Shown: piece after piece, positions 4,137 to 47,246 of the stretch
Position numbering within the stretch: position 1 is the stretch's first letter
Layout of the letters: the number at the start of each line of letters is the position of its first letter
Source of the DNA: Polytrichum commune
Lineage: Eukaryota > Streptophyta > Polytrichopsida > Polytrichales > Polytrichaceae
Assembly: GCA_950295325.1 (NCBI GenBank)
Contig: OX485808.1
Location: 14,138,501 to 14,202,500 of the forward strand
Direction of reading: 5' to 3'
Length of the DNA stretch: 64,000 nt
Made by a program: the position numbers and the translations under genes
Notes under the pieces: generated by a model
What the model was told of the DNA's origin: nothing
Seen by the model: only the letters and a program-made list of their open reading frames with translations
Databases searched by the model: none

Positions 4137-4776
4137 TTTTCTATATAAAATAATTCACTAAATTGGAAATATGCTGGCATCTTCAAACTTTCGAAACACC
4201 CTTGAAAGTTCGCATGTTAAATAGGTTATGCGACATCTCTCCCGGAGTTCATGTTATTAGAACAGCGGCGAAACCGTTTTGTAGTGATTCCTGCTTGCAG
4301 ACCATTGAATCCATCCTGCCTTCCATCAATATTTCAGCATTGTATGTGCCATCACGGGAGTATCTTTACTGATTGAGGTTGTGTCTCTTAATAAGAAAGA
4401 GAAACCAGAAATCAAACTGTACAGAAACTGCCTTCATACTTCCTTCTTATCGGAGGAGTTAAGGGTTTTGGAGCGAGTTCGGCCGTGTTGGTTACCAACA
4501 CCTCGGTCTAACATCTGGCTGAATCGCACTTCATTTCATTGATTCTTGGAGTTCGTCGAAGTTTAGCGAAATCTTGGGAGCAAGTTTCAGCTCCTCAATT
4601 TCCAATTGTTGTGAGCTAGGGTTTCAACTCTGGAGCTCAGGTGCTGGTTTGGGCGTTTCTGATGCTAACACCTCAGCTTAACATCCTGAACTGCATTGCA
4701 TTAGTTTGCTTTTGAATCTTGGAATTCCTCGAAGTGTACCGGAACTTCTGCGAGTAATTTCCAATCTTTGTGAGCT
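4137..4776 (+). promoter_or_regulatory. putative promoter and leader of the SRPBCC gene
   Basis: A TATA-like CTATATAAAA lies at 4141-4150, about 630 bases before the start codon, so the leader would be long or contain an intron. The stretch 4485-4620 is repeated imperfectly at 4655-4781 (offset about 166 bases), each copy running from an AACACCTC word to TTGTGAGCTA. The second copy ends in GAGCTATGG, which supplies the proposed start ATG at 4777; the first copy has GAGCTAGGG at the same point. Promoter identity is inferred from position only. Confidence 0.4.
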
Positions 4777-7231
4777 ATGGTTATGCTGGCGTCGTCATCA
4801 TCCACCACATCCGGAGTTGTAAGATGTGAAAGTTCCACATTCGAGACATGTAGGGGAAGGAATGTACTTAGGAAGTCACAAAAAAATGCAAGCCGCATCG
4901 GGATGGTTAGGTTCAATGGGATAGATGGTTACAGAAGCGGAAGAAGTCATTGCGAAAATGTGCAAGGGGCTGTAAGAGCAGGGTTGTTAGAGGGGAAGAG
5001 CGGAGGGGTTAGGGGAGAGGAAGCTATGAAGGATGACTACCTGGTGAGCATGTTACCCACTGGGTCGGCAGTGGCAGTGAACGTGATCAATTTGGGGAAC
5101 AACACGAGGAAAGTGGAGGCTAAGATTGCAATTCATGCACCTCTGGAGGCTGTGTGGGGTGTGTTGACAGATTATGATCGTCTTGCAGACCATATCCCTG
5201 GTCTTGCTGAGAGCCAGGTATTGGAGCGAAGGCCCCGTGGAGCTCGCTTGATGCAGGTAACCTTCCTTATAGTCCAATTGTTCGCTTCCGTAAGCAGAGA
5301 ACCCACATCATTCCACATAATTCCACATCTCAATGACCAGAAAATCAACTGAATTTGGGGGTGTTTCTCTCTGTGATTATGGTCTGGTGATGGCTGCAAG
5401 AGTTACTTGCTTAAGCAACCAGGACATTCACTCTTTCATGGAGTTAGGGTTTAGTCCAATTGTTTGATTCTGTAACCGGAGAATAACTTTCAACGTAGGT
5501 TATCCACATCTAAGTGACCAGAAAATCAACTGAATTCGGAGGTTTTTATCTGTCTGGTGTGGATAGGCCAATTGTTTATTTTTGTAGTCGGAGAACAACC
5601 TTCAGCCTAGGCCATCCACATCTCAGTGACCAGAAAATCACCTGGATTAAGAGGTGTTTCTGGTGATGGAAAGGCCAATTGTTTGATTCTGTAACTGGAC
5701 AATAACCTTCAACCTTGGCCATCCACATCTTAGTGACCAGAAAATCACCTGAATCATGCAGATTGGTGCTGCGTTATATTATTTGAAAACCCTATGATAA
5801 TAGTTTCTCCATGTAGTAGAGAATCTTCAATTTCTTGATGCTGTTCTCGGAATCATATTCATCAGTTGTGAATAGTGACGTGTCCTGTCAATACATCAAT
5901 AATGGAAGCACTGACTGCTCTGTCGATGGTACTTCAATTGGTAGAGTAGGTGGCAGCGGTGATTCTTGGATGGTCTGAATAACCAGTATTCGTCTCCAAA
6001 CATTGGTGAATCACAATGTAGGTTGCAATCTGTGGCAGTTGCAAATTCTCTTCTCGAATGCCATGAAATTCCGGCTTATGGTATTTCAGGGGGATGTGTC
6101 TTATCTCTGATAATCACTACACTGAGTGGCTAGATAGTCTGCTTTTGTAGGACTTTTTGCAATTGGTGAAGCTCTCACAAAGCCTAACTTGTCATTGACA
6201 ATACAAGATACAATGAACACTTCATGTCTTTTGTGTTCGAGCACTGGACATGTACAAATTCATTACATGTTGACCTCCAAAGACAGATTTTAGGTCTAAC
6301 TGACGTCTTGTCTTTGGAGAACAGATTGGACAGAAGAGCTTAGCCCTTGGAGTGAAGTTCAAAGCGAAAGCTGTTGTGGAAGTGACAGAGGAGGAACCAC
6401 AGGACCTGCATGACGGGGTTTTACGGGACTTGCACTTTGATACTGTCGAAGGAGATTTTCAGGTTTTCAAAGGCACATGGCGAATGCATCAGGTCAGTCC
6501 TTCTCTTGCCTTCCTTCTGTGATGTATGTATGTCTCAAACCAAGACTGTTCAATCTTCTGTGTATGAAATGTCATCTCATGATAGCTCTTGACTCACTCA
6601 ATGTTTTGAGGGTAAGATCTTTACACATCACAAATAACACGCAATGATTTCATGATCAATCTCTTTGGCCTGCAGTTGCAGTAGTGGTGCTGTTGTTACA
6701 AGCTGCTATGTTGGGGTTTTCTATCACTTTATGTCTTTCAGCTAATTCATCTACAGTGTGGTGGGAGGTGACATCTGTATAATTGGCTGTGTGTTTCCCT
6801 AGTGTTACAGCAGATATTATATGTGCTGAGATTACCTTCTTAGTATACTCAAACTCTAGTACAAAATAACTGGCTAGTTTTGGCTAATCCTACTTCTGAT
6901 CAAAGTAATGTCATCAATTTACATTCTGAATGGACTCATGTTTGTGTAGTTTCATGGATACATCCAATGACTAATGCAACCAAATGACTTATGCAACCTT
7001 TGAATTGTGAGATTGATTTTGAACTTTGGCACTCTCGCGGTGCAGGTGAATATGAAGCCCGGTGCTAAAGACAGGGTGCATACCTACTTGACATACATAT
7101 TGGAGGTGCAGCCTAAGAAGTGGATTCCGGTGGCTCTCATTGAAGGTGTTGTTTGTCATGAGATAACGTGTAATCTCACTTCTGTCCGAAATGTTGCACT
7201 CAGGCACAAACATGTCCATGGCTCTCACTGA
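4777..7231 (+). CDS. SRPBCC / polyketide cyclase-like protein, probably plastid-targeted
   Basis: Three exons join in frame: 4777-5256, 6325-6492 and 7046-7231, giving 277 residues. All junctions are phase 0 with GT-AG borders. The N-terminal 90 or so residues are rich in Ser, Thr and Arg, as in plastid transit peptides. A START-like SRPBCC domain then fills most of the protein: it opens with VEAKIAIHAPLEAVWGVLTD, continues with FIPGL-type DHIPGLAES, and the second exon carries VEGDFQVFKGTW. The final exon has the family's WIPVALIEG and a closing helix. The layout resembles plant cyclase/dehydrase and lipid-transport superfamily proteins (COQ10-like group), whose ligand is unknown; lipid or isoprenoid binding is inferred. 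The start at 4777 is the first ATG; Met3 at 4783 is an alternative. The C-terminal end is His-rich (RHKHVHGSH). Confidence 0.9.
5273..5760 (+). repeat. tandem repeat inside intron 1 of the SRPBCC gene
   Basis: Four imperfect units begin with CCAATTGTT at 5273, 5456, 5569 and 5674, and each carries GACCAGAAAATCA near its end. Spacing is 183, 113 and 105 bases. The first unit starts 17 bases after the splice donor at 5257. The array lies wholly within intron 1 (5257-6324) and does not enter the exons. Confidence 0.85.
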
Positions 7232-9248: not shown

Positions 9249-10355
9249 TCATGGTTTATGTTCGTGAAACCTAGAACAACGTGCCTCTTCAAAGAGCGCT
9301 CTATATTTGGAAATTTCTCTTTGCATTGTATTTATCGTATTTTCAGCTTGAGCTATAAACTCTGCAACTTTTTCACATCCTGAACATGGCTCTCGACCTG
9401 TATGCTCAATCTCAGAGAAAACTGTACTTACAGATTCCGTCACTTTCAAGTCTATCTTTGAGGTGAACACATTAATTGATACGTGATGATTCCCTTCTGC
9501 AATCATGTCTTTGAGAGTTGATAACGGAATTTTTGGAAGAGCATGCTTGCCTAAACATGATGCAGATGTAGACTGGAGACTTGAGTCACTTTCACTAGTG
9601 AGCCCAATTTTTTCTTCGTTGGTTGTGGGAGAACAACTTTCATTTTCCTTCAGATGGTCTTTCTTCACCACATCATTTTCCTCCTGATCATGTTTTCCTA
9701 TGTAATTCTTTACCTTGGTTTGTTTCTTGTGATTGTCTGTTCTCTGTACAATTGTTTTGTTTGCTGTTGGAAGCAAATTGTAGGATGAAGCATCTGAAAC
9801 CTTGTTTGCATCGGTCTTACAATCTTTCACCTTTGCATCAGATGACACGTAAAAGTCCTCTGTAATTTCTCCCTCCTCAATCTGTTGGAAGCCCTCATAT
9901 CCTTCATCTGCAATTTTTGAAGATGAAACATTCAATGGTTGAGGATTTTCATGAGTTGAAATGTCTCTATCGCGTTTGTCGCTTTGAAGTCGAGGTGATC
10001 TACACCTTGCGTCAGAATATCTCTCTCTTACTTCTCGAGATCGAGAACGTTCCCGCCGGTTTCTTTGATAAGCTATGGATGAATTCCTTGAATCTTCATA
10101 ACCATGATAATCTTGTAACGAAGAATGTTTTCGTCCTCTATAATCAACTTCAAGCCTATTATTCCTTGCAGATTGCAAGTGAGGTGGAAAATAATCACTT
10201 ATGTTTGCTCTTTTTGGCAAATCATGAATGTTTTGAATATTGTACCTGTCCTGTGAGACTCTTCTTGTACCAAGATTATAATCTCCATGTGAAAACCTAC
10301 AATTTGGTCTTGAGCAATGCCCAAGTTGATAGTATTTACAAGGTATCTTCGACAT
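9249..10355 (-). CDS. CCCH-type zinc-finger protein (368 aa)
   Basis: A single uninterrupted frame on the minus strand starts at an ATG (10353-10355) and ends with TGA at 9249-9251. Residues 6-23 form one CCCH finger, CKYYQLGHCSRPNCRFSH (Cx7Cx4Cx3H), the kind used in RNA binding. An Arg/Ser-rich stretch RNRRERSRSREVRER follows, then an acidic EEGEITED patch and a long low-complexity region. The C-terminal 45 residues look helical and contain CSGCEKVAEFI. The arrangement resembles plant nuclear CCCH proteins linked to RNA processing, though no exact family can be named. The finger starts five residues from the Met, so an upstream exon may be missing, and another frame just upstream (to about 10463) is Cys-rich. 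An AATAAA-type word about 50 bases downstream (near 9195 on the reverse strand) fits a poly(A) signal. Confidence 0.75.
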   Translation of the reverse strand: MSKIPCKYYQLGHCSRPNCRFSHGDYNLGTRRVSQDRYNIQNIHDLPKRANISDYFPPHLQSARNNRLEVDYRGRKHSSLQDYHGYEDSRNSSIAYQRNRRERSRSREVRERYSDARCRSPRLQSDKRDRDISTHENPQPLNVSSSKIADEGYEGFQQIEEGEITEDFYVSSDAKVKDCKTDANKVSDASSYNLLPTANKTIVQRTDNHKKQTKVKNYIGKHDQEENDVVKKDHLKENESCSPTTNEEKIGLTSESDSSLQSTSASCLGKHALPKIPLSTLKDMIAEGNHHVSINVFTSKIDLKVTESVSTVFSEIEHTGREPCSGCEKVAEFIAQAENTINTMQREISKYRALFEEARCSRFHEHKP

Positions 10356-11321
10356 TGCTGATCTATTTGATGTATGCAATCAGGATTACATGTTGTTGGA
10401 CAATAGTGTAATCTATTTTCTTGTAAAGTCTTTTTGCAGTTGTATACACAGTCCTCTTTTACTTTAAGGTTTTTATTTTTACTTTATTTTTACTTTATTT
10501 TACTTTTATTTTATTCTTTTATATAATATTTTAATTCCAAACCAAGTTAGAGGATGAAAGACTAAAGTGAGGGTGTATAACTAACTAAGGCACTTATAAC
10601 TTAATGTAAAATTATTTATAAAATGAATATTGATTCATGATCAGGTCTCTATGTACATTGATTCAATAGAAAAGTAGAATCACAAGAAGACAATTTGGAC
10701 GATTCCAACCGCAAATATGACATACACTAGATCATAAAACTACACAAATATGATGGTTGGCAAACATGAAAGATAAATATTCATGTGCCTAAATGTTCTT
10801 GGAAGAAGAAGAAGAAGAAGAAGATGCCATTCTAATGTCAACTTTGAGCATCATGATAATGTATAAAATCCACAAATTGAATGTATTTCATAAGGTCATC
10901 CTGGGCACATCCCCATTCCTTGAGGTCCCCTCTTCCTTAGGGTATCCTCCCCATTCACGGGCGGACCCGCATCATAAAATATCCTAATGGAGAATTGTTA
11001 TGTTAAAATGATAAAAAATTAAACTAACATCATAAATATCCAATCAATGTCAAGATAATTTCATCATTATGTACTTTAATCTACAATATTCCACATTGTA
11101 TCACTATTTCACATAATTAATATATAAATCAATAAATTAATTATGCCATAATGATGTTATGCACCACTAGGTATATCAATCTATAACGTAATAAATTCAC
11201 ATTTGATGTTTGTGACGCAATTTCCGTCTATGGGCTTCCTACATAACCTTTCCACTCATGAAACCCTATCGGGCTCCGAAATTTGGGTACATGACTTTGA
11301 AAAATGTACACGACATTGGAA
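10356..11321. other. AT-rich intergenic DNA with a GAA microsatellite
   Basis: No gene is seen. A GAA run stands at about 10801-10823. Around 10440-10510 the plus strand is T-rich with repeated TTTTACTTTATTTT words, which could be promoter-proximal for the minus-strand zinc-finger gene. The remainder is AT-rich and unassigned. Confidence 0.45.
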
Positions 11322-20200: not shown

Positions 20201-22500
20201 AACCACATGGCAGTTGATTTACTGAGAGATTGGATATCGAATGGAAAATGTATCGTACAAATACGTTCATGATAGAAAGGTCGCAGGTATAGCAGCAATG
20301 TTATTGAACTCCTTCCACACCCAAACAGCTAATTCACATGACATTACCAGCCTTCACATTGTGGATCTCAAGACGTCTTCGAAGACCAATCCAAAGAACC
20401 TTTAAACTTAGTTTACTATCAAGTGGTGCTGTCAAAAGCTGTCCACAACCGTTGGCCCAAAACTGAACGCATAAAGATAACTTGTGAAACAAGGCTTTAA
20501 CTGTGCGAGACGATTTTTGCACTGACAGAACGGGAAAATATGGGTTTCTTGGCAAAAAGATACAAAGACAATGTGGGTTTCTTGGCAAAAGATACAAAGA
20601 TGATCATCCAAAGGTTTGCATTTGAAAGCAGATTGATGTAGTTTCTGTCAAGCGAGGCAATTTCCAACTACCGTCCACAATCGATCACATTTGAAGAATT
20701 TGATAACCAAAAATCTACAGGATCACACCCCTACCAATGCATAGACATCCGAATAGGTTGACAAGCACATGGTGTCTTCATTTCGAAAGCAATCACCTAA
20801 CAATTTTACAGAGCTCTAGATCTAAGCTCATAATCAATGCAATTGTCAACAACCTCTACATGAATCCAGTGACACGAGACTGAGGTGAGGGAGAGACGAG
20901 CAACAATACATTGAGGTAAAAATGACAAATTTGGGTTTTCTTGTCAACAGAAGAAATACTTCATTTCATATCCAAGTACGTCGCCCGGCCATCAGAGGCA
21001 TCCCTCTGTGGCCCAGCACAAATTAAGTTGGCTGCTTGAGTGGAGAGAGAGTCAGAGTACCGAAGGCAAAAAGCTACAACCAAGCCGGCCAAATCCAAAA
21101 CTGAACTCATCAATCCAAGCACATGATGCTTCTGTGGAGTGCTGGCTTACTAACTAATCCTCATTCCAGCACAGATAGGAGCGGCGGTCATTTTGAGTAA
21201 TGAGATTCTCCAGAGACCTGTTGCCTTCATCATTGAACCAGTTCCTGAACTCCTGCTATTGTGCCTTTGCAATTTCTCGCTTATTAGACCTTATCGCCGC
21301 ATTCAGCAGCCTCCAGACCTCTGCTCTGCCAACATTGTGACCCGGTATGGATGCGTACTGCTGTACATCGTCTCCGAAACTTGCCCCTTCTGCAGCTGCA
21401 CTGACGAATGAGGAAATCCATGTCCTCCATGTCCACAGGCTCGTTCATTGACCAAACCTAGCATCAGAGAACTTCACAAATGCATCGCTCTGCCCTTCGA
21501 GTTGCTGACAGTAGAAGTTGGCGCTCAAACAGGGGACGCATCCAAATTGCATAACCTGTGGTGCATGCACTCCTCCCCTCATTTAAAGTAGGATCTCTCA
21601 TCCTTGCATGCATTCCTCACTTCAGCTGCTGTTGTAGTGCCACGATGTGCTTCGTCCAAATGACATAGAGCGCGCACCGGAGCGCACCATGGAAGCCATG
21701 GCCTGCATCACGGACCTGGCTATGGCCGCCTTCACTTGCCCGCGCCTTGGCGCTGCCTTCCTTGGCCTCATCGTGTTGCCGCTCACTGCAACGTGTCCCA
21801 CTGCCATCGCTCTGCGTTGAGATTGCGAAGAGAAGATGAACAAGAAGGCTAAGCTGAGCTCCAAGCGAGATGCAGAGGAGAAGGAATTTGCAATAGCAGA
21901 AGTAAGAAGGAAGAGCTTGCGGAAATTGAGCAAGTCGAGTAGTGAAGATTTCGGAGAGAAGAAGGTGTGGGAGAATTCTGAGCTGAGCTGGGGGTAGGTG
22001 AGCTGTGGAATGAATCGGTATACCGGCAGCAGAGACTTATAGGAGGTTGAAACATTCCCAACATGAGATCAGGTCGACCAATTCTACATCATCTTCTTCG
22101 TGTGGAATCTGGGCGGTCCCACCCCGGCTGGCGGTATTTCAGTCAAGACTTGTTGTTGACTCCACCTCCATGGATCGTAGCTAGGACAGGCAGCAGGGGG
22201 GGGCAGGCATGGACGATGGCGTGGCGTCCAAGCTCCCAGCCGATCGATCGATCGATCCGCTCACGTGTTATGCTCAGGAGTAATTAGGGTTAAAGAAATC
22301 TAGTGAAGTTGGGGAAGCTTCCCGAGAGCTTTCCAACTATGTCCCCGTGCAGGGGAGCCCGCCTGTTTTGGTGTGCTCATCTCCATGTGCTTGTATATAA
22401 TGACGATGCTCCCTCCAACAAGAATCTCTTGTTTACGCCCCACCCCCTTACACTAAGGCATGCGGGTGTTATGCGGTTTGGTATTCATTGTTCTCCATTA
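17281..22500 (+). repeat. 5-kb tandem repeat unit, copy 1
   Basis: This unit aligns end to end with 22500-27265. Landmarks in order are GTGAAATCGAAGTGTGACT (17470 and 23180), a GAT microsatellite (19068 and 24060), TGTCATTGGGCATAC (19240 and 24242), GTGACACGAGACTGAGG (20869 and 25700), AATCGGTATACCG and a GATCGATCGATCGATC run (about 22240). The part before about 20868 has diverged widely from copy 2, whereas 20868-22430 is nearly identical to it. Only short frames of 70-100 residues survive, on both strands, and none matches a protein family that I recognise. A telomere-like TTTAGGG pair is at 19700-19716. The unit may derive from a once-coding or transposon sequence; this is not established. 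Confidence 0.75.
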
Positions 22501-25500: not shown

Positions 25501-27265
25501 ACCGCCGAAGGACATCCTGACCTCATTTCGAACGCAATCACCTGAGGACCTTACGTAACGCCAAATCTCAGCTCATGACCAATGCAATTGGCAATCTCAA
25601 GAACCATGTTACGGAGACATCATCATATCATCAGGCCTCCTACTATACTTTCAAAACACGACGGCAACTGCAAAACCGCATGAATCAAGTGCTTATTCAG
25701 TGACACGAGACTGAGGTGAGGGAGAGACGAGCAACAATACATTGAGGTAAAAATGACAAATTTGGGTTTTCTTGTCAACAGAAGAAATACTTCATTTCAT
25801 ATCCAAGTACGTCGCCCGGCCATCAGAGGCATCCCTCTGTGGCCCAGCACAAATTAAGTTGGCTGCTTGAGTGGAGAGAGAGTCAGAGTACCGAAGGCAA
25901 AAAGCTACAACCAAGCCGGCCAAATCCAAAACTGAACTCATCAATCCAAGCACATGATGCTTCTGTGGAGTGCTGGCTTACTAACTAATCCTCATTCCAG
26001 CACAGATAGGAGCGGCGGTCATTTTGAGTAATGAGATTCTCCAGAGACCTGTTGCCTTCATCATTGAACCAGTTCCTGAACTCCTGCTATTGTGCCTTTG
26101 CAATTTCTCGCTTATTAGACCTTATCGCCGCATTCAGCAGCCTCCAGACCTCTGCTCTGCCGAAATTGTGGCCCGGTATGGATGCGTACTGCTGTACATC
26201 GTCTCCGAAACTTGCCCCTTTCTGCAGCTGCACTGACGAATGAGGAAATCCATGTCCTCCATGTCCACAGGCTCGTTCATTGACCAAACCTAGCATCAGA
26301 GAACTTCACAAATGCATCGCTCTGCCCTTCGAGTTGCTGACAGTAGAAGTTGGCGCTCAAACAGGGGACGCATCCAAATTGCATAACCTGTGGTGCATGC
26401 ACTCCTCCCCTCATTTAAAGTAGGATCTCTCATCCTTGGATGCATTCCTCACTTCAGCTGCTGTTGTAGTGCCACGATGTGCTTCGTCCAAATGACATAG
26501 AACGCGCACCGGAGCGCACCATGGAAGCCATGGCCTGCATCACGGACCTGGCTATGGCCGCCTTCACTTGCCCGCGCCTTGGCGCTGCCTTCCTTGGCCT
26601 CATAGTGTTGCCGTTCACTGCAACGTGTCCCACTGCCATCGCTCTGCGTTGAGATTGCGAAGAGAAGATAAACAAGAAGGCTTAAGCGGAGCTCCAAACG
26701 AGATACAGAGGAGAAGGAATTTGCAATAGCAGAAGTAAGAAGGAAGAGCTTGCGAAGTTGAGCAAGTCGTGCAGTGAAGATTTCGGAGAGAAGGAGGTGT
26801 GGGAGAATTCTGAGCTGAGCTGGGGGTAGGTGAGCTGTGGAATGAATCGGTATACCGGCAGCAGAGACTTATAGGAGGTTGAAACATTCCCAACATGAGA
26901 TCAGGTCGACCAATTCTTCATCATCTTCTTCTTGTGGAATCTGGGTGGTCCCACCCCGGCTGGCGGTATTTCAGTCAAGGCTTGTTATTGACTCCACCTC
27001 CATCGATCGTAGCTAGGACAAGCAGCAGGGGGGGGCAGGCATGGACGATGGCGTGGCGTCCAAGCTCCCAGCCGATCGATCGATCGATCCGCTCACGTGT
27101 TATGCTCAGGAGTAATTAGGGTTAAAGAAATCTAGTGAAGTTGGGGGAGCTTCCCGAGAGCTTTCCGGCTATGTCCCCGTGCAGGGGAGCCCCGCCTGTT
27201 CTGGTAAGTTCATCTCCATGTGCTTGTATATAATGACGATGCTCCCTCCAACAAGGATCAATTGT
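22501..27265 (+). repeat. 5-kb tandem repeat unit, copy 2
   Basis: This is the second clear unit, directly after copy 1. Its first part (22500-25025) is diverged from copy 1. The stretch 25025-27245 matches copy 3 (49268-51510) closely, and 25699-27262 is almost the same as copy 1. A GAT microsatellite is at 24058-24089. The same short minus-strand frame, ending ..EVWRLLNAAIRSNKREIAKAQ, is present here (26087-26296) and in copy 3, while copy 1 has lost one base of it near 21390. Similarity ends near the word CCCTCCAACAAGGATC at about 27250. Confidence 0.75.
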
Positions 27266-37169: not shown

Positions 37170-38039
37170 TCAAATCAATTTATTGAATTTTGCGAGCCGC
37201 ACAATGCTCTTATATACATTATCGCGCGGGTTGAGTGCCGCATTGCCGATGGGGTTGGACCTAACAAAATTGGGGATGCTTCTGGGGTGGAGCACAAGCC
37301 TTCTAAGGTAAGGTGCTAGCATATGGACCAAAAATGTGTCGTTCCTATTGCCGGTCCACGGGTCGGGGAAGATGACGTTGCCCGGGGGGTTCAAAACGCT
37401 TTTGGTGGGGTTGTCGTTGATGAGGAGGGTGTTCTCAGGAGTTGGCCAACACTTGTCGGGTACCCCCTCCAACAGGGGGACGCCTCGCCACAGTCTGGAC
37501 CTGAGGACCTTGAGGAACTATTGTCCTCGGCCTCGACCACCAAATTTGGGCATAGGCAGACCCTTCTTGTTGAGGAGCTCATCGCATGCCTCTTGGCTGA
37601 GGATGAGGCAAAGGTTCGGGAGATCACGGAATAGGAAGTTGACGATGGGCTCTGTGTTCTCCATGACCATGGAGCTCCACAAGACGACGTGAGCAAAGTC
37701 GAGCACCTCGCGAAGGAAGTCTCGCAAGCCGGGACGGGCGTGGATAGCCTTGCGGTTTATGAGAGTGTCGAGCTCGCCGTCATAATCTCTCTCGTCAGGA
37801 TGACGGAAGGGACGCGTGGGGACCTTGGGAATGTGTTTGGTGTGACATAACACCTCGTTGAGGTCAAAAACTATGAATAGCTTGTTTTGGGTCTCAAGTC
37901 CACTAGCCAAGGTGTTGCGATCTATCTTGGGGGGTCCTGTGATTAACAATTTGACTAGTTTAATGTTATGATCTAGTAAAGAAATTTGCGTCAAACATGA
38001 AGACGATGCATTATGGAAAAAGATGAGGAGTGAGAACAA
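37170..38039 (-). pseudogene. HAD/FCP1-like phosphatase-like gene with an in-frame stop
   Basis: One continuous minus-strand frame runs from at least 37936 to a TGA at 37170-37172, interrupted only by a TAG at 37518-37520. The first part holds KLFIVFDLNEVLCHT, the HAD motif-I block with Asn in place of the second Asp, as in a plant HAD group that reads DLNGLL. Then come GLRDFL and VVLWSSM, the motif-II region. After the stop, still in the same frame, come FLKVLRSRLW, NTLLINDNPTKSVLNPPGN and IPNFVRSNP, which fit the C-terminal half of that same group. No in-frame ATG is seen upstream; an acceptor-like TAATCACAG ends at 37937, so an upstream exon may exist or be lost. The most likely reading is a recent pseudogene or gene fragment; readthrough is possible but unsupported. 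Confidence 0.75.
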
Positions 38040-39364
38040 GATTGTGAGGAAAATGTGCTAAAGGGTACATCTGCAAACGAGCGGTTGTGAATGAAGGCCA
38101 ATAGTAGCAAGGCGCATCATTCACGAACGCTCGTTCATGAGTGCGACTTAACCCCTAAGTGCCCAAGCCTTTCGGAATGCACTTTTCCTAAGAAATATGT
38201 GCATGGCTTTAATACAATCCCCAATGGAGGAATTTGTCTTTTATCCAAAATCTAACCGTATAGATGTTTAAAGAACTTGTTTATTAGTATGCATACCAAT
38301 TTTGAGATCGAGATTGCATAAGAGTTGTGAGATACAAACAGGAGAAATGTATACATTCTTTTTTTTGTATGCCGCCCCTCCCCACAATGTTGGTATGATT
38401 TGCTCATAAGTGTTTTTAGAAGTTTGAGGTGACATGAACAACTCCAACATGTGAAAGAATACAAAAATGTGATTCCAAAGACCCTATGTATGCATATAGA
38501 GCTATCCCAATCATTTCGCAATCCTCCTTGCAATTCTTGAAATGCATTTTCTTTATTTTAACACTTGACGATTTGATATTGCAAATTACTTCACATTGGT
38601 AATTGTGAATACTAATATTCAACGGTCAAAAATACGGAATTTTTTTACTCTTTCCACTACGACACTTTTCAAAAGAAATGAATAATGAGAACTCTTTGGA
38701 TGTCAAAAACAAGTACAATAGTCTAATTAGCTGAAACATTGAGGAAGTAGTAAAGCACTTTCTCCACCCATTCCCTACATCACGGACACATATGCCTTTC
38801 CGACCCTCTCTAAAATCGAATATTTACTCTTTTTGGTCAAAAATGCCTCAATCCAAAAGTTGCCCTTCCATACTGCCCGCCAAAAAAATTTACGCGGTCA
38901 AAGGAATTTTACCTGCCCACACACAAACGAGCTGAAATTTTTGATCAACCATATATGGTTGCTCGGGCACTTAGGGGTTAATGTACATTTACGAGCGATT
39001 GTTCGTGAAAGAGGTGGACACCCTTTTATGAGTGGTCGTTCGTGAAGGAGGTAAACGCGTGGTCATGCCCTTTTATGAGCATCCGTTCGTGAATGAGGAC
39101 GCAAATGAACCCGCATGAATATACACAATACAAGGAATGCGACATGATAGAAAGTTTGAGTGATCCACTGTAAAGCTCATTTGATCATATATTAATTTCT
39201 AAAAATGTACAACTTGTCTCAGGTGATAATCTATCACACATGTTCCTAAGGCAATAGGATGCCGTGTCCTACAAAACTAATCGACCTAAGGGAATACGCA
39301 AAAAAAGGCTCTTGCAAGTCTTGGATGTCGATGAAGAAAACGTACCAAAAAACAATGCAGGTGG
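38040..39364. repeat. intergenic DNA with inverted CGTTCGTGAA-type repeats
   Basis: The segment 38105-38168 is inverted relative to 38961-39010: both carry CTTAACCCCTAAGTGCCC (or its complement) next to a word of the form TTCACGAACGNNCGTTCAT. Further single copies of the word stand at about 39015, 39070 and 39858. No gene is seen between the arms. Clusters of short words in both orientations are known near the ends of some DNA transposons, which is one possible meaning. Confidence 0.6.
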
Positions 39365-41800: not shown

Positions 41801-44800
41801 ATGAAGATGGAGGTTATTGGCTTCTTGCCACAATGTGCTTGGCATACTTTGGCCATGACCTTGGGGATACTTGCAGTGTTCAGTATTGCAACATTCCTTT
41901 TTGAGAGGTTCATGAAGAAAATCGTTCCCGGGAGGAGCATGGACACTGGGGATCAACCGATCCCACAAATCAAATGGACCATGCCGTTTATTGGAGAGGT
42001 TCTGAAGATATGGTGGAAAGGATCCCCCACCTTCTTCTATGATCACGCTGTCAGGTAAATCACTTTGGACCCATAGCTCTAAAAATCCACAAACGACTAC
42101 CCAACTAGGGCTTTGATACGCGGAAGGAAAACTAGATGTACGTATGTAGCTCTTTAGCTCCTTCACACAAAGGTTAACTTTGGGCAATTTCCCACCTAGG
42201 GAAACGTGCTGTGAGGTGGGCGACACCTCCCTGTGACATAAGTTTGTGAAGCTGATCTTGCAGGCTCCAAGATTCATTGGAGAAATCATAAGCGTAGCAT
42301 GCTGTGATCGTGTGAGCTCATCCACTTATTATCCACAAACGTATAATGTAGGATGAAGTGTTTGGACTTGATAATTCTGAGAAGTTGGAACTGTACCTCT
42401 GCATGGTTGCAGGTTGGGAGAGGTGTACCAAATGTCAATATTGGGCTACAATGTCCATGTTGTCAATTCTCCTGACTTGATCAAGCTGGTGTTGTCATCA
42501 CCACACAACATTATGCAGTATCCAGGGGCGATATTCAAGTTGTATCTGAGCCCAGACATGCTCACTCAAGAGCGGGTGCTGGAGATGCATGGGTACATGC
42601 GGAGGGCAACCTTGGCAACATACGCAGGCGAGAATCTTCACAACAACTTGTCTCTCATCAATCAAGTCGCTTCTGAAGCTGTTGACTCTTGGTTGCATCG
42701 CAAGAGTGTGACTGCTTCTGACGAGTTACATAAGGTACTAACAGGCATTCCAACTTCTACATGCGCCTAATTTGGATACCCTTTTCTTTGCACCCACTTC
42801 TACAAAGATATGAAGCACAGATAGATAGATAGAAACTCCGGTCCCAATTAAGGTTCCGGCGTGAATGAAGTGTCCGTTCGTATTGTCAAATGATCCGATG
42901 CCCGCCAGGCAAGGGGAAATTTGGACAGTACTACTCTCCCCTTTCGAGGATGGACACTATAGTAACCAGAAGACAAATAAGAGTAACCCACCGTAGTTGT
43001 TAGCAGGTAATTACGTTTGTGTTATGGTATAAGTTGTGGTTTGTTGTGGCGGTGGTCGCCAAGTCATGTTTCCTTGGTTGGTTAAGGGAGGATGTTTGTA
43101 CTACACTTAGACGATCTGGGTTCGATTCCCGTTGAGTCCGTCTGATTGTTTAGTGTGTTATACATGGCTTGGTGCTGCTAGTGCTTTATAGGCAGGAAAG
43201 TTGTATCAACCAACCGGCTCTTACCCATCTTCATGAGCTATTGATGTTCAAAATTGTTCAAATAAATAATGGTCTATGAAGCACACACTTAGTGTGAGAT
43301 AATTAGCAAATCCAAATCGTACCGGTAGCCATTGGCCTCGTAAATTTCGGAGCTCATATGAATATCTTATTCATTATCAAAGTTAAGATTCTCATGTTCA
43401 TCAAGTGGTCATATAAGTCCCTCCCAATTCTGTTGAATTTTGAAGTCAAAAGAGCTAGCATATTTTGAACACGTAGTTAAATCTCCTTTCTACAAAGGAC
43501 ACTTTTTGTTATCCGTTCTTAAATTCACACATAACCACATACTACTCAAATATAGGCATTCAAATTATTGCTATGCTTGAAATCAAGCACGTCTACCTTA
43601 GGCAATGTTACAAACTTTTTTAACCTTGAGAGCTAGGAGCCCGGTTGAGGTTATAGGACATAATTACCATTTGGGCAAGGTTGGGTGGCTTCCTCTGTGG
43701 GCCCTTCATTAATGAACATCAACATGCTAGATTGAGGATGAGGGAGGGTGAAGGTTATGTTTATGGGAAGTTATCTTCTTCCTCAATTTTGGAGTTGCTT
43801 TTGTATTATAAGCCATTTTGAAGACTGTGAGTTCCAAAAAGCTTCATAGAGTTTTTGAGAAGTGAAAAAGAATACATGGATGACTTTGGATGGTGATCAC
43901 TAGATTTTGGTTCCCAACTCTACGTTGGGGGTGAGGTAAAAACATGCCCCCTATAAGTTTCTTGTTGATTCATCCAATTGAAGAACAAGAAACTTATTCA
44001 AGGTCTTTGACCACCAGCTGAGGTGTTACTCTTCGATAAAAAATTATAGTTTTTATTTTGTTCATAGTGCACTAAATGTTGTATTTAGTTGCACTTATTA
44101 TTTGGAGTTGCACAATGCTATATCATTTTCTATTATTAATTAATTTTTTTACCAAGTTTAGATATAAATGTCTCATAATGTTCAAACAACGAATTTGATG
44201 TCTGCTCGCACAAAATGAGAAGTAAATAGTTATAGCATTGTGCAATTCTCGGGGGGGGGCAGTGTGTTAAAAAGTTAAGGATATAGGTGCGAACAACCAT
44301 TATTTTATAGGGGGGTATTACTTTCAATTCTCTTTTTTTTTTCACATGCTATCATTATGTAAATTTCTACTTTGGGTTAATATAAAAATGGCTTGCATTA
44401 CTTATAATTCCAAATTACCTATTATTCCATACCCTATAGTACTTTAAAGATGTCCAGTGACATTTTTGATACCCTATATTACTCTTAAGTCCAATTATAA
44501 TTTTTTGCCCCCATGTTTTTAAAATACCCTATCATTTGTTCGCACGTATATTGCTACTCCAACCAATGACTACCCCCCCCCCCCCGAGGTGCAATTCCAC
44601 CTAGCATGTGGCACTAAATACAATATTTAGTGTTGCTAGCATTTTCACCATCCCCATTCGTAGGTGTAGGAAGATTTACCCATGACTCCTGCTATAAGAA
44701 GATTGCGCATAATTAAATCTCAGAAAAACATTCGACAGTGTAAATATTTTCTTCACACACAACTGGTATCAATGGATTCCTCTCAACGCCCTGTTTTTGA

Positions 44801-47246
44801 GCACCTTGCTTCTCTTTGTGATTCTGTAAGTCATCGATTCATTAGAAGCATTAGAAGTGATTTAGAAACAACTGTTCTAGTGGTGAGATTTGCCACCCTA
44901 GATTTCACTTCAAACACCTATGATTCAGGTAAGTTCACGTACTAATCACAATCATTTCGAGAATTTTGTTGTGCAGTGTATTTTTCGCATTATGACTACC
45001 ATGGGGTGGAAGGACATGACGGAATTTGGAGATTTTGAGAAGCTACAAGAAGACATGAAGATGATCAATCAAGGGCTCTTATGTGCAAGAATCAACCTTC
45101 CATTTTGTAACTGGTATAAGGCGTTGAAGGTAACTGCAACTTGCACATTCAGTGTCCTTGGACCTCCTTGGCTAATTATTGAATATCGTTGTCCTTTGCA
45201 GTATTCATCTCATTTAATTTCATAAGTTTCTGTAACTTTTTTTTTAAGTTTTTGCTTGTTTGATTAGGCACGAAACTCCATTGTGCCATGCATTCAAAAA
45301 TGTATCACAAAGCGGACTGACGAAGGTCGCCACCATGAAGACGTCATTGGTAGTATGATGTTTAATGGTGGTGCAGTTAAATACACACCTGACAAACTTG
45401 CTGGCATGGTCCTTACCACGTTTACAGCTGGGACATTGACCTCGATTTCCTTGGTTACATGGATCATCAAATACCTTCATGACTACCCGAATGCACGAGA
45501 ATTCATACAGGTGACAGTGCCTACAAATCTACCATTTTCTAAGTGTTTATTTGAATATCACAATTGATTTCACAAAGAACAAATACCTACATAGACATAT
45601 GTATTTTGAAGTTGAGATGTGTGGACGTCAACATTTACTTATTTGGAGAAGAACAACATTAACTTAGTGGTGACCTAATAACTCATTTTCACTGAACTGT
45701 TGTGTCCATGTCATGTGTTGCAGGCTGAGAATGATGAAATACAGAAGAAGTTGCTCGAAGATGATACATTGAAATGGTTCAAGACCAAATCATCAATGCC
45801 ACTTACATTACAAGTAAGTGTTCGTACTTTGCACTCTATTCCAAGTATTTGACTTTACTGTCACATGAAACTTGATCATAGTGTGTGATTTTTAATGTGG
45901 AATTCATGATGTGTCTTTAGGTAGTAAACGAGGTCCTCAGGCTTTCAGGATCTTCAACCGTGCTTCCTAGGCGCGCCACAGAGGAGGTCCAATTCAAAGG
46001 TATATATGCAGGTTGTTCATGTTTTAATAAGCATTTGAAATTGTTGCTTATGTACCATCCACTACCACCATTCAAGTCCAATGCAACGTATCATTTGTCA
46101 CAAACAAATTTGGATATCTTCCACATTGGTGACAATGTGACAATGAACAACATATAGTCGTGGGTGGTACTATGATAGGATTTGTTGCATAGTCAAATAT
46201 AATCGTGAAGTAGCTTGAAATGTAAGATGCAATATCTAGTTTGTATGTTGGAAGAGAGGTATGCACAACCTTGTATGTATGAGAAATCTTTATATCAATG
46301 TCATACAGTTGGGGGCTTTATGTGTTATCAAATACTTCAATACTATGGAAGCATGTCTCTTCACTTGAAAAAAAATGACTATGTTTGTGTTTGATGTAAT
46401 TACAGGCTACACATTTCCCAAAGATTGTACTATGTGGGCATTAGCATCTCATGTCCACATGGACCCAAAGATTTACCCGGAGCCAATGTCTTTCAACCCA
46501 TTTAGGTTTCAGGTATGATATCTCTCTTGAAATACTTCGATCTGTACGCGTTGTGTGTTTGTACATAGTCATTACATTTATAACGTTAGAGTGTTCTAAT
46601 ACATAGTGTGAAATGGCAGATGTCACCTTTAAATCCCAACAACTTTGTGGCTTTTGGGGCTGGCCCTCATATGTGCCCGGGTCAAGAAATGGCATTGAGC
46701 ACGACACTCATTATATTGAACCACTTTGTCACTAAATGCAGGTAAATTGTTGGTGTTTTTTTCCAGCAATGACTGCTATAACATTATTGTTTTGAATCCC
46801 ATATATATGTTGTATGATTATTTGTTGTGACCTATGTATTCTAAGGAAGATTCAAAATAGACATCATAATGTGCTATGATGCATTCCAACAACATCATTG
46901 ATGATAACTAAGGAGACTTAAATATGAGAACTTGCACTTTCTTAAGCTCACATTTGTAGGGTTGGAGATCCACTATGACTTACTTTTGATCTTGTCTAAG
47001 CTTGTTGCAATAGATTGACAACTTTATTCTACAATCCAATTGGTTTCATTATGTCTAATACTTCTTTATGATTGATATGCAATGATGTTATATTAAACAT
47101 GTATTAATTTATGCAATCCGATCACTTTGATATTCCGAAGGTGGGAGCGATTGGGGCATGACGAGAAGTATATGTACAAAATCAATGCGACTAGCAAACC
47201 CAAAGATGGGTTCCCAATGATAGTTACAAGCCGTACAAGTCCTTGA
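41801..47246 (+). CDS. cytochrome P450, CYP85-clan type, 491 aa
   Basis: Nine exons join in frame with GT-AG borders: 41801-42054, 42413-42734, 44977-45129, 45268-45510, 45724-45813, 45921-45999, 46406-46512, 46620-46741 and 47141-47246. The product is 491 residues, normal for a plant P450. Residues 10-35 form a membrane anchor (LAMTLGILAVFSIATFLFERF). Further on come the I-helix AGTLTS (297-302), the K-helix ExxR as EVLR (358-361), the FNPFRF block (410-415) and the heme loop FGAGPHMCPG with Cys435 as axial ligand. Sequence style and exon pattern fit the CYP85 clan (CYP85, 90, 707, 716, 720 and relatives), which act on sterols, triterpenes, diterpenes and hormones at the ER; the substrate is not known. 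The usual acidic residue of the I-helix (A/GGxD/ET) is Leu300 here. Intron 2 (2242 bp) holds a SINE and a G-tract MITE. The start is the first ATG after the TATA-like word; a second Met follows at residue 3. Confidence 0.95.
42775..42965 (-). repeat. dispersed repeat in P450 intron 2
   Basis: The reverse complement matches 58622-58770: both have GGGCATCGG.TCATT, ACGAACGGACACTT.ATTCACGCCGG and GGAGTTTCTAT words. Nearby text (TTTGCACCCACTTCT at 42788 and 43290-43330) also matches 62920-63030 in inverted orientation. Element ends are not clear. Confidence 0.6.
43025..43215 (+). mobile_element. probable tRNA-derived SINE in P450 intron 2
   Basis: A perfect RNA polymerase III B box, GGTTCGATTCC, is at about 43129-43139 (within CTGGGTTCGATTCCCG). 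About 50 bases upstream lies TTGGTTGGTTAAGGGAGG, an A-box-like word. The sequence does not fold as a full tRNA. A tail follows without a clear poly(A). Only one copy is seen here, so the right border is a guess. Confidence 0.5.
44248..44588 (-). mobile_element. G-tract MITE in intron 2 of the P450 gene
   Basis: A 341-bp full copy in reverse orientation. The ends are CTCGGGGGGGG and CCCCCCCGAG, and the flanks carry the perfect 8-bp duplication GTGCAATT at 44240-44247 and 44589-44596. The host site lies between two ACTAAATA palindromes (44069-44091 and 44612-44633) and an inverted pair around GCACAATGCTATA (44110) and TATAGCATTGTGC (44231), so it landed in an older repeat. It sits about 390 bases before exon 3. 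Confidence 0.95.

Follow-up and report, generated by a model that had tools for sequence, protein, structure and literature searches.

A moss cytochrome P450 without the conserved acid of the I helix, and its relatives in the same genome

In a conventional cytochrome P450 the threonine of the I helix holds Fe-OO(H) and a neighbouring acid helps to pass protons; this acid-alcohol pair belongs to the textbook account of how oxygen is activated and has been studied mostly with mutants. A P450 gene of Polytrichum commune that keeps the alcohol and has leucine at the place of the acid raises the question of what such a gene is: a copy in decay, an artefact of the gene model, an enzyme that has left oxygen activation, or one that activates O2 by another proton route. 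We lean, with a confidence only modestly above even, towards the last of these, namely a complete and probably ER-anchored P450 of an acid-free lineage, likely still activating O2 by way of Thr301 and water or through a proton route provided by the substrate.

The gene and its I-helix site

By the window we mean the whole stretch of 64,000 nucleotides that was analysed, C6:14138501-14202500, in a genome of 407.8 Mb and 64 contigs (contigs are numbered C, loci L), of which C1-C7, of 77.9, 70.3, 59.2, 59.1, 52.9, 44.7 and 42.1 Mb, together make up nearly the whole. The P450 gene runs from 41801 to 47246 on the plus strand, and its nine exons (Table 1) are predicted from the DNA to encode 491 amino acids. 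All junctions are GT-AG and the joined frame is open up to one terminal stop, and on this point the initial annotation, which had described an open gene of nine clean exons, was correct. The protein matches PF00067 (Pfam p450) over residues 60-464 (8.9e-48, 163.6 bits) and possesses both the ExxR and the heme-loop Cys that mark the superfamily, and the hydrophobic stretch encoded by exon 1 is, by inspection, a probable ER anchor. The P450 search of the genome listed no second match inside the 64-kb window. Intron 2 contains an open stretch of 91 codons (44670-44945, plus strand), which lies outside the gene model.

Table 1. Exons and motifs of the P450 gene, in positions of the window
Feature	Positions	Strand	Evidence
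Exon 1, aa 1-84/85, hydrophobic N-terminal stretch	41801..42054	+	homologous exon 1 in L005, L006
Exon 2	42413..42734	+	gene model, relatives' exons
Helix-C HxxxR, HGYMR, aa 144-148	42588..42602	+	aligns with HRDMR of CYP90B1
Exon 3	44977..45129	+	gene model, relatives' exons
Exon 4, holds the I helix	45268..45510	+	homologous exon of 237-246 nt in L005, L009, L020, L021
I-helix motif AGTLTS, aa 297-302	45427..45444	+	translated exon 4
Leu300 codon TTG, usual Asp/Glu position	45436..45438	+	translation, alignments
Exon 5	45724..45813	+	gene model, relatives' exons
Exon 6	45921..45999	+	gene model, relatives' exons
K-helix ExxR, EVLR, aa 358-361	45930..45941	+	translation
Exon 7	46406..46512	+	gene model, relatives' exons
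PERF-like motif FNPFRF, aa 410-415	46492..46509	+	translation, alignment
Exon 8	46620..46741	+	gene model, relatives' exons
Heme loop FGAGPHMCPG, aa 428-437	46653..46682	+	translation
Exon 9, stop codon TGA	47141..47246	+	gene model

Inside 45420-45446 the codons GCT GGG ACA TTG ACC TCG read A297 G298 T299 L300 T301 S302, which departs from the conventional acid-alcohol motif, [AG]Gx[DE]T[TS]. Leu300 falls on the Glu of AGHETS in CYP90B1 (PDB 6a17) in an alignment that is gapless around the site, so that translation and alignment together confirm the missing acid first reported for this gene. The motif has a role in proton delivery and is described, in an excerpt of PMC8110760, as generally valid in the superfamily, CYP20 being one of the known exceptions, and because of these exceptions AGTLTS is compatible with P450 membership. 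The accompanying statement that everything else is intact can be kept for EVLR, FNPFRF and the heme Cys, but has to be corrected for the heme loop, whose ten residues include His where FxxGxRxCxG usually has Arg. We see no connection between this His and the odd I helix, because the position varies among the relatives (His in L020, Tyr in L021, Lys in L009) and because L018, which bears the acid, has His as well.

Some other features of the assembly may be recorded here. Three 300-nt stretches of the window recur, with their order and spacing unchanged, at 20864-22221 and 25695-27053, 4.83 kb apart and 96-100% identical; together they probably form a single direct repeat of some 1.3 kb, which would be either a tandem duplication or the two ends of a retroelement. 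The open reading frames at 4774-5352 (plus), 9249-10379 (minus) and 37518-38057 (minus) gave Polyketide_cyc and NIF-phosphatase matches above the Pfam cut-offs and CCCH zinc-finger matches below them. Contig C8 (146,561 bases) carries rbcL, tRNA-Arg(CCG) and accD (315 aa), in that order. Features of this rbcL and accD point to a non-seed plant, most likely a moss, although moss plastids are usually smaller than this.

The lineage and the control loci of the same genome

Neither Asp nor Glu is present at the acid site in any of the eleven readable loci of the lineage, that is, the window gene, L005, L006, six copies on C3, L020 and L021. The two close copies on C1 read AATITS, with Ile in place of the acid and Ala in place of Gly298 (L005), and AGTLTS, with Leu as in the window (L006, C1:32.995-33.001 Mb). 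The array L007-L012 comprises six near-identical copies at C3:10.00-10.80 Mb which read FVGTTIKF; one residue of their I helix is deleted and they are without the acid whatever the placement of the gap, which is uncertain (in one alignment Gly298 and Thr301 are kept and Thr stands at the acid site). L020 (C5:38.38 Mb, AGYITT) and L021 (C3:27.18 Mb, AGYATT) are more divergent members with the same exon plan. Some of these paralogues have diverged as far as 34-35% identity and still show Leu, Ile, Ala or a deletion at this place. Thr301 is invariant in the seven aligned sequences and present also in L005 and L006, ExxR and the heme Cys are kept in the members that were read through, and a hydrophobic N-terminus is found in L020 too. 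Because only the top candidates are scored in the genome searches, the lineage may have further members, and acid-bearing ones may have been missed.

Since close relatives in the same genome are likewise without the acid, its absence looks like an old trait that a small gene family has retained, and not like a random defect. A loss private to the window gene, or an annotation error, was rejected as the main reading, because the same exon of the paralogues also lacks the acid. That a wrong exon 4, a misaligned site or an assembly error should account for the motif seems to us very improbable indeed: L005, L006, L020 and L021 each have a homologous exon that gives the motif in the same frame, the alignment with CYP90B1 shows no gap around it, and the homologous exons 4 of 237-246 nt listed in Table 1 make a different exon 4, which the initial annotation had named as a way in which its claim could fall, unlikely.

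Among the control P450 loci of this genome, 51 of the 52 that were readable have Asp or Glu at the site, and one has Asn. The control sample consisted of 55 loci, namely L027-L065 (39 exon hits, taken in rough rank order from the hit table, with C3:11105970 and lower hits left out), six clan-85-like loci (L016-L019, L022, L023), L024 and L025, and L068-L075; the I helix was unread in L024, L025 and L074. Thirteen of the control loci, including L065 and L073, were read by eye from translations, and some of them, such as L029/L030 and L045/L046, are near-duplicates of each other. The only non-acidic case in the 52 is L062 (C1:29556540-29557140), which reads GGTNTVA. At the neighbouring position the usual Thr is missing from L065, which does bear the acid, and is replaced by Ala in L056.

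In a tree of 16 rows (eight of the lineage, the six clan-85-like loci of this genome, CYP90B1 and taxadiene 5-alpha hydroxylase; L007, L008 and L011 were left out as incomplete or near-identical, and L026 as broken) a single branch with support 100/100 parts the acid-free from the acid-bearing rows, and the label changes once. The simplest reading would be one loss of the acid in the common ancestor of the lineage, which is not a proof, because the tree is unrooted and samples a single genome and two PDB sequences.

Selection and decay

The case for a pseudoenzyme, or for a gene in early decay whose odd I helix came from relaxed selection, is made by the most recent copies, and we think that it is an improbable one for the window gene. 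The trio formed by the window gene, L005 and L006 evolves fast, with dN/dS of 0.67 for window-L005 (90% bootstrap 0.46-1.1), 0.74 for window-L006 (0.55-1.04) and 0.82 for L005-L006 (0.57-1.38); constraint is possibly weak there and, given these values with upper ends of 1.04-1.38, the trio may be drifting neutrally or decaying. With the long intron 2 left out, the coding sequence differs from that of L005 at 86/1476 sites and the introns at 68/1710, a coding divergence greater than that of the introns, as decay would have it; for L006 the figures are 107/1476 and 100/1710. There are also lesions among the relatives. In L006, intron 4 has lost its AG and ends in AA, and because of this damaged splice site exon 4 is called with 249 nt (243 nt with the borders of the relatives); its coding sequence has three 3-nt length differences, and L006 is possibly a young pseudogene. 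In the array, the same stop interrupts exon 3 of two of the six copies, L007 and L008, and exon 1 of L009 was not found within 5 kb upstream when the first 90 residues of the window protein served as query. The AG loss of L006, the stops and the missing exon suggest that some members of the lineage may be in decay. L026 (C3:45754000-45763900) is a broken remnant whose exon 3 contains a stop; neither an I-helix exon nor a convincing match to later exons was found in it. Against all this, the window copy itself has no lesion, with its nine exons and splice sites intact; 86 random substitutions, as between it and L005, would have left no stop with a chance of only 0.044, and a single coding indel, of 3 nt, separates the two copies where the intron rate predicts about 10. 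L020 and L021, moreover, are acid-free and yet under purifying selection, with a dN/dS of 0.21 (bootstrap 0.14-0.29) that is rough because dS is 1.9, near saturation. The initial annotation was right that the odd motif does not look like simple decay.

Three smaller observations belong to these copies. The donor of intron 5 is GC in L005 and L006 and GT in the window copy. The distance from exon 2 to exon 4 is about 13.5 kb in the array copies at 10.63 and 10.71 Mb and about 1.7 kb in L009, which suggests a shared insertion before duplication. Over the first 463 residues, 6 of the 54 amino-acid differences to L005 fall within residues 285-304; the idea that the changes within the trio gather in the I helix was rejected, as the densest 20-residue stretch was matched in 728 of 2000 shuffles.

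Proton delivery and the comparison with known P450s

If the lineage still activates oxygen, as we prefer to think, its enzymes would take electrons from P450 reductase and bind O2 as before, Fe-OO(H) would be protonated through Thr301 together with an ordered water, or by a polar group of the substrate, with no Asp/Glu relay, and turnover would as a result be slower or gated by the substrate. It is also conceivable, and in our opinion unlikely, that O2 activation has been given up in the lineage, and that a peroxide is either rearranged, dehydrated or isomerised by its enzymes or drives their reaction; the acid relay would then be unneeded. The absence of the acid from every lineage locus that was read would agree with this, and there are precedents, since CYP152 peroxygenases replace the acid-alcohol pair (excerpt of PMC10750395) and thromboxane synthase functions with Ile at the Thr site, in AGYEI (excerpt of PMC13049297). 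For peroxide or other O2-free chemistry one may also quote the NO reductase P450nor (CYP55A1, PDB 1cmn), where Ala occupies the acid site in AGNAT, as it does in the AGYAT of L021. However, the window gene has kept Thr301, which thromboxane synthase and CYP74 lack, and a heme loop without insertion and a hydrophobic N-terminus are what reductase-dependent microsomal P450s have. With ExxR and the heme Cys kept as well, and the signs of CYP74 absent, the unusual chemistry proposed in the initial annotation comes out weakly supported; because the window gene fits neither the thromboxane synthase nor the CYP152 pattern, peroxide chemistry is less likely but possible, and the same word, possible, is the one we would use for O2-independent chemistry in the lineage generally. 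We are equally doubtful of a broader proposal, by which a P450 lineage of non-seed plants would have lost the acid permanently and kept the Thr, and would act on a lineage-specific metabolite by O2-independent or peroxide-driven chemistry or with a dedicated substrate-assisted proton relay, the recent C6 and C1 copies diverging quickly in new directions.

A natural lineage that has the alcohol, and Leu, Ile or Ala instead of the acid, offers ready-made enzymes for testing the need for the acid, and it marks a group of plant P450s with a chemistry that is not predictable from the motif. In the literature on plant P450s, as far as the titles and abstract openings of the listed papers tell, we found no description of an acid-free lineage of this kind.

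Among known enzymes, CYP90B1, which we take to be the brassinosteroid C-22 hydroxylase, is the best PDB match both of the window protein (6a17, 1.4e-40) and of L020 (6a15, 1.4e-45). It is 28% identical to the window protein and has the framework of I helix, K helix and heme loop in common with it, but bears Glu and groups with the acid-bearing rows across the 100/100 branch. The second PDB family, again for both proteins, is taxadiene 5-alpha hydroxylase (PDB 8x1w, presumably CYP725A4), which has Asp in ASYDTT and likewise lies on the other side of that branch. We assume that both enzymes are members of the CYP85 clan; the window lineage appears CYP85-clan-like, with these two as its nearest solved structures (PDB chains being the only named references), and is probably microsomal. 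The heme approach of L020 and L021, PKPNTFMPFGNG, is presumably common to CYP707A (ABA 8'-hydroxylase). The I helix of CYP707A is AARDTT, with Asp. A table of PMC6433873 assigns three Physcomitrella genes to CYP707A.

As for enzymes with an altered I helix, the PDB matches give no sign of a close relation to CYP55, which was absent among the best 60 of 330 for the window protein and among the 58 listed for L020; its resemblance to L021 is confined to the kind of residue that replaces the acid. CYP51 has His at the acid site of its I helix. His is found there also in CYP3336A1 (AGHHTS; excerpt of PMC8110760), and P450nor is described as a fungal NO reductase fed by NADH (excerpt of PMC5691058). 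The window protein differs from CYP74 in its Thr301, its ten-residue heme loop and, by inspection, its hydrophobic N-terminus. CYP74 has no Thr in the I-helix motif, an enlarged heme loop and no membrane anchor. Allene oxide synthase (CYP74) and thromboxane synthase (CYP5A1) both have altered I helices and act on peroxides; the axial Asn of CYP74 is absent from the window gene, and thromboxane synthase has kept the Glu and lost the Thr (excerpt of PMC13049297), which is the reverse of what the window gene has done.
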